Shown one piece after another: positions 1-35,281 of a stretch of DNA of 42,736 nucleotides. The notes below the pieces were generated by a model. The model saw nothing but the letters and a program-made list of their open reading frames with translations. It had not been told where the DNA came from and searched no databases. Position numbers and translations under genes: made by a program. The number at the start of each line of letters is the position of its first letter. Position 1 is the first letter of the stretch. The stretch comes from Vulcanimicrobiota bacterium. GTDB taxonomy: Bacteria; Vulcanimicrobiota; JAJTBE01. The stretch is from positions 1-42,736 of the forward strand of contig JAIORV010000103.1 in the NCBI GenBank assembly GCA_021107945.1, read 5' to 3'.

Positions 1-45
1 TGGATTTCTTTCAATCCACCGGCTCAGCAAACATGCCGGGCGAAC

Positions 46-302
46 AGACAACACCCGATTTTAATCGGGTGGTTAGAAGCCTATAAAACCTACCTCCTCC
101 TCCAATTTAACCGTTTCAACGGTTTCCTTATGAGATAAACCACTGAAGTGGTTAGGACGCTGTAGCGGTGGGGTTTACACTCAATTCACCACAATAAATT
201 GTGGTGTTGTCTTAAACACCTTTAAACTCCTGTTATTACTCTAAAACACTTGAACTAAATTCTATTACTTCTTGACAGATTCACATGTGCGAAATGTGAG
301 TA
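46..302 (-). repeat. Hairpin-array element, copy 1 (inverted)
   Basis: This is the reverse-complement copy of a roughly 260-bp element also present at 14446-14795 and 34950-35212. Read on the minus strand it holds, in order, a small CACAT/ATGTG hairpin, decamer-like GGTGTTTTAA motifs, hairpin D (CACCACAAT/ATTGTGGTG), a conserved linker, hairpin C (AACCAC-TTCA-GTGGTT), hairpin B (AACCGTT/AACGGTT) and hairpin A (ACCCGAT/ATCGGGT). The copy is unbroken but has diverged in the loops and linkers. No reading frame of note lies inside it. Its function is unknown; a MITE, a REP-like array or a structured leader are the options. Confidence 0.85.
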
Positions 303-14445: not shown

Positions 14446-14795
14446 ACTCACATTTCCCACATGTGAATTTGTTAAGAAGTAATAGAATTTATTTCAGGTG
14501 CTTTAATGTGATTACAGGTGACTATTCAGACCTCTCACTGCAGGATAGGCTTCCAGCTTCCACCCAAACTCCTGGGGTGGTCTGAATAAATACGATAACA
14601 GGTGTTTTAAAGTGTTTAAGACAACACCACAATTCATTGTGGTGAATTGAGTGTAAACCCCACCACTACAGCGTCCTAACTACTTCAGTAGTTTTTCTCG
14701 TCAAGAAACCGTTGAAACGGTTATATTGGGGGTGGGAGGTGAAAGGCAGGTTTTATAGGCTTCTAACCACCCGATTAAAATCGGGTGTTGTCTTA
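14446..14795 (+). repeat. Hairpin-array element, copy 2 (with insertion)
   Basis: This copy has the same order of hairpins as copies 1 and 3 and is in the same orientation as copy 3. Hairpin C reads AACTAC-TTCA-GTAGTT, a paired C-G to T-A change from the other copies. Hairpin A is ACCCGATT/AATCGGGT. It contains a 64-bp insertion (14524-14587) missing from the others. It ends about 150 bp before the MoxR start and holds no gene. Confidence 0.88.
14524..14587. repeat. 64-bp inverted-repeat insertion within copy 2
   Basis: ATTCAGACC (14524-14532) and GGTCTGAAT (14579-14587) are perfect 9-bp inverted ends; CCACCC and GGGTGG form an inner stem. The block is absent from the other two elements, so it looks like a later insertion. 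No target-site duplication is evident. Confidence 0.6.
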
Positions 14796-14944
14796 AAAAC
14801 TCGAAAAGCTCATAAACATTGCAACAATTGATTAACAGGCTATCAATGAAAAAATACAATCGCTTGTTTTGACAAATGGAGTGGCTTAATTAAAAGATGT
14901 CAGGTGTGCGAAATCTAATAAATCTGAAAAATACGGAGCGAACA

Positions 14945-34949: not shown

Positions 34950-35212
34950 TACTCACATTTCGCACATATGAATTTGTTAAGAAATAATATAAATTATTTT
35001 AAGTTGCTTGGGGTAATAATAGGTGTTTTAAGGTGTTTAAGACAACACCACAATTTATTGTGGTGAATTGAGTGTAAACCCCACCACTACAGCGTCCTAA
35101 CCACTTCAGTGGTTTATCTTATCAAGAAACCGTTGAAACGGTTGAATTGGAAGTGAGAGGTAGGTTTTATAGGCTTCTAACCACCAGATTAAAATCTGGT
35201 GCTGTCTTAAAA
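34950..35212 (+). repeat. Hairpin-array element, copy 3
   Basis: This 263-bp copy has hairpin D at 35046-35065 (CACCACAAT/ATTGTGGTG), hairpin C at 35099-35114 (AACCAC-TTCA-GTGGTT), hairpin B at 35128-35143 (AACCGTT/AACGGTT) and hairpin A at 35183-35200 (ACCAGATT/AATCTGGT). Hairpin A has a paired C-to-A and G-to-T change against copies 1 and 2. Linkers are conserved (CCCCACCACTACAGCGTCC, GGTTTTATAGGCTTCTAA). It ends about 70 bp before the E1-like gene. Confidence 0.9.
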
Positions 35213-35281
35213 GCTCGATAAGTTTATAATTAATATGAAATATGATTATAAGGCATGAGAGCAGGAACTGGAGGTTTTGTC

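Follow-up and report, generated by a model that had tools for sequence, protein, structure and literature searches.

A four-hairpin array in a Vulcanimicrobiota genome, probably a non-autonomous derivative of a Y1-transposase element

The contig JAIORV010000103.1 of a Vulcanimicrobiota bacterium, 42,736 nucleotides long and analysed here over its whole length (the window), carries at 34950-35212 an ordered array of four hairpins, D, C, B and A, whose stems differ between copies in both arms. The locus raises the question of whether such an array folds as RNA or as single-stranded DNA, and of what has multiplied it in the genome. Our analysis indicates, with a probability of about 0.85, that the array descends from a Y1-transposase element, as a REPIN-like, non-autonomous and presumably mobile form that is read as single-stranded DNA.

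The hairpin array, its copies and its pairing

The three copies that a reading of the window from sequence alone (the sequence-only reading) had described, at 46-302 (minus), 14446-14795 (plus) and 34950-35212 (plus), were confirmed in position and in their common order D-C-B-A (Table 1). Genome-wide searches covered the assembly to which the window belongs (215 contigs, 5.56 Mb). Collecting the copies in it, as that reading had proposed, gave at least 46 BLAST matches to the array (best 40 of 163 candidates scored), several of which are split copies. For hairpin D (CACCAYAATTTATTRTGGTG), with one mismatch allowed, about 103 occurrences were counted, nearly always as exact copies, against 0 for a reversed-pattern control; the hairpins are therefore far more numerous than expected by chance. 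The array at 34950 is part of a longer element, truncated at its 3′ end directly before a ThiF-family gene at 35255.

Table 1. Positions of the array, of the surrounding element and of inserts in the window
Feature	Copy	Position	Strand	Remark
Left terminal inverted repeat, outer element	3	34952..34971	+	no right end left
Hairpin D, outer left	3	35046..35065	+	loop TTTA
Hairpin C, inner left	3	35099..35114	+	loop TTCA
Hairpin B, inner right	3	35128..35143	+	loop TGAA
Hairpin A, outer right	3	35182..35201	+	loop TAAA, then CTGTCTTAA
Left terminal inverted repeat, outer element	2	14447..14466	+	
Core array D-C-B-A	2	14617..14795	+	
Right terminal inverted repeat, outer element	2	14900..14919	-	
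Left terminal inverted repeat, outer element	1	281..300	-	
Core array D-C-B-A	1	44..214	-	
5′ end of probable group IIC intron, after hairpin A	1	1..45	-	truncated by contig end
Other dispersed repeat, ATTCAGACC...GGTCTGAATA	2	14524..14585, approximate	.	within tandem 20-mer part; by eye

Pairing was assessed in an alignment of 36 arrays made without a pairing filter. In this alignment 98.9% of the cells pair, and the value falls to 34-47% when the partners are slid by 1-3 columns. Two-sided changes are found at 5 pairs, compared with a shuffle mean of 1.5, and 0 of 500 shuffles reach 5. The compensatory changes noted earlier in stem C (CCAC/GTGG to CTAC/GTAG) and stem A (CCCGAT/ATCGGG to CCAGAT/ATCTGG) were recovered in the larger set, and the proposal that folding has been under selection stands, since paired changes exceed both the shuffle and the slid controls. 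A few hairpins are broken in single copies; a GACAA/TTGTC helix linking the array ends D and A shows no covariation in the 36 arrays. The loops of A and D, described earlier as freely variable, are in fact constrained: D and C have TTTA or TTCA and B and A have TAAA or TGAA, with variation confined to one position (TTYA in D and C, TRAA in B and A).

The layout is mirror-symmetric, such that the reverse complement of A resembles D and that of B resembles C. A single motif, consisting of an inner hairpin (TRAA), a spacer of about 22-66 nt, CACCnnnn TRAA nnnnGGTG and TTGTCTTAA, fits the B-A half as it stands and the D-C half once reverse-complemented. Because this one motif collects both halves, we conclude that the array consists of a single two-hairpin end present twice, in inverted orientation. 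Each end module comprises two perfect hairpins, with an outer stem of 8 bp and an inner stem of 6-7 bp, and the inversion of the ends is also seen in TTYA, which lies on the top strand in D and C and on the bottom strand in B and A. Among 94 end modules the outer stems include CACCACAA, CACCCGAT, CACCATAA, CACCAGAT, CACCCAAT and CACCCGAC, and the inner stems include AACCAC, AACCGT, AGCCTC, AACCGA, AGACGC and AACTGT; the matching partner arm of these distinct stems is nearly always present, in outer hairpins collected without a pairing filter and inner hairpins collected with one. The loops of the 94 modules are nearly fixed, TRAA in one orientation being TTYA on the opposite strand; the inner-loop collecting motif itself required TRAA, and the unbiased loop evidence is that of the hairpins flanking tnpA relatives in other phyla (below).

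At their feet (TTAAGACAA... and ...TTGTCTTAA) the hairpins have TTAA-like sequence on both sides, and there is one putative empty site, which might correspond to insertion 3′ of a fixed tetranucleotide without duplication. Many D hairpins (L045, L146-L176) are preceded by runs of a degenerate unit (TTTTTAGAACAACACCGCAATTG...) that resembles half hairpins, as if ends had accumulated in tandem.

Y1 transposase genes between the same hairpins

The Pfam profile Y1_Tnp (PF01797) identifies 12 genes in the genome, three of which (C30, C83 and C149; 145-155 aa) sit within the hairpins of the array, in the order D-C-[tnpA]-B-A. From D to A this tnpA element measures about 605 bp, and the transposases of C83 and C149 are 85-86% identical to that of C30. 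The search for a transposase that the sequence-only reading had recommended thus led to IS200/IS605-family Y1 genes between the same four hairpins; the two things on which that reading had made its proposal depend, an excess of paired changes and a transposase link, are both present.

Four other loci (L149, L157, L165 and L171) hold forms of 185-187 bp without a reading frame. Their left 102 bp are 90-93% identical to the C30 element and their right 77-79 bp 80-88% identical, and three of the four still have the AGGAG that preceded the missing start codon. To judge from this match, the four short loci are the tnpA element minus its ORF. The tnpA elements do not have the outer terminal inverted repeats (TIRs) of Table 1. 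Longer arrays with other spacers (about 236-363 bp) exist as well; among the common subtypes, that of the three window copies is the shortest, spanning about 160-182 bp from D to A. Just 3′ of the tnpA elements L045 (C83) and L047 (C149), and on both sides in L047, lies a short coding segment (…RQIDKLLYELYGLTE…) that we take to resemble the C-terminal tail of a DNA methylase. An omega-RNA/tnpB element was also considered; inspection of the tnpA copies showed no adjacent reading frame of tnpB size.

The transposases score 60.8, 59.7 and 82.9 bits with the IS200/IS605 model NF033573, above its NCBIfam cut-off of 55, and 29-32 bits with the RAYT/REP-associated model NF047646, below its NCBIfam cut-off of 80. 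The HxH and Tyr motifs align with those of the ISHp608 transposase. The motifs of TnpA-Y1 subclass 1.2, [DE]H[IV]H, WQ and Y---Q--HH, and its length of ~148 aa are found in C30, C83 and C149 and in at least 20 of 24 relatives, whereas the C73 and C54 proteins depart from the Y motif. On the motifs EH[IV]H, WQ and Y---Q--HH and on length, the transposase is placed in subclass 1.2. This subclass has been described as generally without IS200-type terminal structures, not REP-associated and of low copy number (Quentin et al. 2018, PMC6006769). The published proteins resemble ours in the ~148 aa, the three motifs, the short C-terminal domain and their occurrence in Bacteroidetes; the difference is that they were reported to lack REPs and, in general, terminal structures, whereas here covarying paired hairpins stand at both ends. 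No later work on subclass 1.2 was found in the open-access literature, which is weak evidence.

Relatives of the transposase occur in Bacteroidales, Neomarinimicrobiota, KSB1, Ignavibacteria and Cloacimonadota. Hairpins with a perfect stem of at least 7 bp and a 4-nt loop were counted within 150 bp of the genes of 24 relatives, with 37.6 kb of distal flanks as control. Upstream of tnpA there are 21 TTYA hairpins, 3 TRAA and 2 others, and downstream 17 TRAA, 7 TTYA and 1 other, compared with 1 TTYA, 0 TRAA and 4 others in the control. An upstream TTYA hairpin is present at 17 of the 24 genes, a downstream TRAA hairpin at 15, and both at 12. Between phyla, loop and orientation are kept while the stem sequences differ. 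In one Bacteroidales genome a looser D-type pattern matches 16 times, mostly at the identical hairpin D, and one Neomarinimicrobiota genome contains a four-hairpin array, D(TTTA)-C(TTCA)-B(TAAA)-A(TAAA) (L214), that has no transposase motif in its vicinity. A search of public genomes for an exact 21-mer from the array gave no match outside the source genome, and among 98 genomes of the phylum the core is present in the source genome and in none of its 97 relatives.

These data bear directly on the choice between RNA and single-stranded DNA that the sequence-only reading had offered. If the array were a structured non-coding RNA or leader, RNA folding would account for the covarying stems, and the copy at 34950 does lie just upstream of the ThiF-family gene. 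However, the gene neighbours of the three window copies are mutually unrelated (ankyrin repeat, MoxR-type ATPase, ThiF), the proposed Rfam search for a known RNA family returned no match to the array, tnpA lies between these same hairpins, which form inverted ends in a mirror-symmetric layout, and outer TIRs and target duplications (below) mark mobile DNA. The RNA option gains nothing from the analysis and we regard it as very unlikely; the single-stranded DNA option (REP/MITE ends) is strongly supported by the Y1 tnpA between the same hairpins.

Relation to known systems and proposed mechanism

The statement that no named family has this layout holds only in part, since the layout is REPIN-like. 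As in the REPINs/BIMEs that accompany RAYT, e.g. in Pseudomonas fluorescens SBW25 (PMC3116915), inverted palindromic ends enclose a variable spacer in many copies (one motif fits both halves), compensatory changes occur, and a related Y1 transposase gene is flanked by the same palindromes. In contrast to those systems, the array has two hairpins per end, is nested in a DDE-type MITE, lacks a GTAG/GTGG foot, its feet being TTAAGACAA and TTGTCTTAA, and goes with a transposase that falls below the NCBIfam RAYT cut-off and is thus not a RAYT/TnpA-REP. With neither the GTAG foot nor a RAYT, the array is therefore not filed as a REPIN. A parallel for the loop comes from Marinomonas, where experiments with TnpA-REP Mb show that a TTTA loop must keep its T, T and A, whereas its third position may vary and part of the stem positions can be replaced (PMC8266576). 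The Marinomonas REP shares with our hairpins the perfect stem, the TTTA loop and the same loop rule, seen here from covariation, and differs in its GTAG foot, its 5-bp stem, its single hairpin and a RAYT of another group.

IS200/IS605 elements (ISHp608/IS608, ISDra2) and their non-autonomous derivatives resemble the present element in their small HUH/Y1 TnpA, of which the genome holds a cognate, in hairpins near both ends and in the lack of a long TIR on the core. Here, by contrast, the ends are doubled, have perfect stems and are inverted by loop orientation (left TTYA, right TRAA) rather than lying in direct orientation on the same strand; the protein belongs to subclass 1.2 rather than 1.1, and no tnpB is seen beside tnpA. 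Because the ends are inverted, the IS608 mechanism is not directly transferable and the strand logic must differ.

We propose that a parent D-C-[tnpA]-B-A, of which three copies survive, would have lost its tnpA ORF and so given rise to the array. The HUH/Y1 TnpA would bind the single-stranded hairpins through stem shape and the TTNA loop, which would explain why pairing is conserved while stem sequence drifts. It would then cleave near the TTAA-like feet and mobilise in trans any DNA between two such ends, tnpA-less arrays included. More broadly, it seems likely that subclass 1.2 Y1 transposases form a cross-phylum class of mobile elements with one or two perfect hairpins per end, inverted, with fixed TTYA and free but paired stems, that leave behind transposase-less four-hairpin arrays and link IS200/IS605 to RAYT/REPIN. 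The assignment of an end structure to an orphan transposase subclass is the new part, and it provides this class of single-strand-DNA transposases with a testable substrate and a simple rule: pairing needed, stem sequence free, TTYA fixed, ends inverted.

The outer element and an intron-like insert

Most copies of the window subtype lie within a larger element whose ends, CTCACATTTCGCACATGTGA / CTTAGATTTCGCACACCTGA, are inverted repeats. The 20-bp outer TIR has about 105 matches genome-wide (control 0), and an exact 5-bp target duplication is present in 15 of 19 two-ended copies, where shuffling predicts 5.0 and 0 of 5000 shuffles reach 15; no other duplication length fits. TIRs and a fixed 5-bp duplication are the signature of a cut-and-paste (DDE-type) MITE, and the recent amplification of the window subtype was therefore probably driven by a DDE enzyme. 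Since the outer element alone explains this recent spread, TnpA may no longer act on the window subtype. A DDE_Tnp_1 search of the assembly, which is broken at repeats, found no DDE_Tnp_1 gene with the outer TIRs as an autonomous partner.

The TIRs, their 5-bp duplications and their roughly one hundred matches would also suit a simpler account, in which the array is no more than the interior of a common DDE-type MITE, with incidental hairpins and without a Y1 transposase having taken part at any time. This account fits the recent spread, but it is insufficient for the origin: ~45 D hairpins stand outside outer elements, arrays flank or descend from tnpA elements without outer TIRs, and the stems co-vary. 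We consider it unlikely. The feature is rather a Y1 derivative without transposase that lies within a second mobile element and has received a third, intron-like insertion, and most copies would have spread, after the loss of tnpA, as passengers of the outer element. One outer element (L202, C33 end; L191, C153 start) has a different inverted-repeat insert (TCGAGTAGGGTAAGGTCATAG…) at the core's position, flanked by TTAA, which suggests the former existence of a core-less outer element. A single genome displays a presumed series, from the tnpA element through the ORF-deleted element to an array carried by another element, the path along which an origin of REPIN-like families from IS200-like ancestors has been proposed.

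Several outer elements (L053, L059, L066, L068 and L153) stop a short way past hairpin C, around TATCTCATC, as though at a recurrent deletion point. On the 5′ side of hairpin D, up to the left TIR, a 20-bp unit, TTTTAAGGTGATAACAGGTG, is repeated in tandem one to five times, for example at 14505-14604 of the window. The dispersed repeat listed last in Table 1 also lies within the 5′ portion of the outer element at L030 and L033.

The sequence GTTCGCCCGGCATGTTTGCTGAGCC has nine exact copies, all at contig ends. Seven lie inside an array of this kind (C18, C46 twice, C49, C50, C88 and C138), six of them directly after hairpin A ...TTGTCT and the one at the C46 start after an inverted hairpin D ...TTGTCT. 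The C110 copy follows an A hairpin of another spacer type, and the C116 copy follows a classical terminator ending TTTTTTTATCT. Group IIC introns insert after terminator hairpins and attC sites (PMC4424553), and by this analogy the insert is probably a group IIC intron, whose ribozyme domain V would end just before TTAAAAACTCG. It is like that class in its insertion directly 3′ of hairpins, a terminator included; unlike that class, only its first ~45 nt are assembled here, to which Rfam intron models gave no significant match, and no reverse transcriptase (RVT_1) domain is found in the genome assembly.

The preference of group IIC introns for terminators and attC sites could also be taken to mean that the hairpins themselves serve as transcription terminators or as attC-like sites of integrons, and are not the ends of a transposon. 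We regard this as extremely unlikely, as no T-run was found 3′ of the hairpins and they form ordered, inverted sets that flank tnpA. Our reading is that transposon-end hairpins are the probable landing sites of the group IIC-like intron, which, with other insertion sequences, would have landed in or beside the hairpins after the array had spread. An insertion with inverted ends CCATTC… lies inside hairpin A of an outer element (L026, C4 start; L186, C133 start), with an apparent 8-bp duplication, ATTAAAAT.
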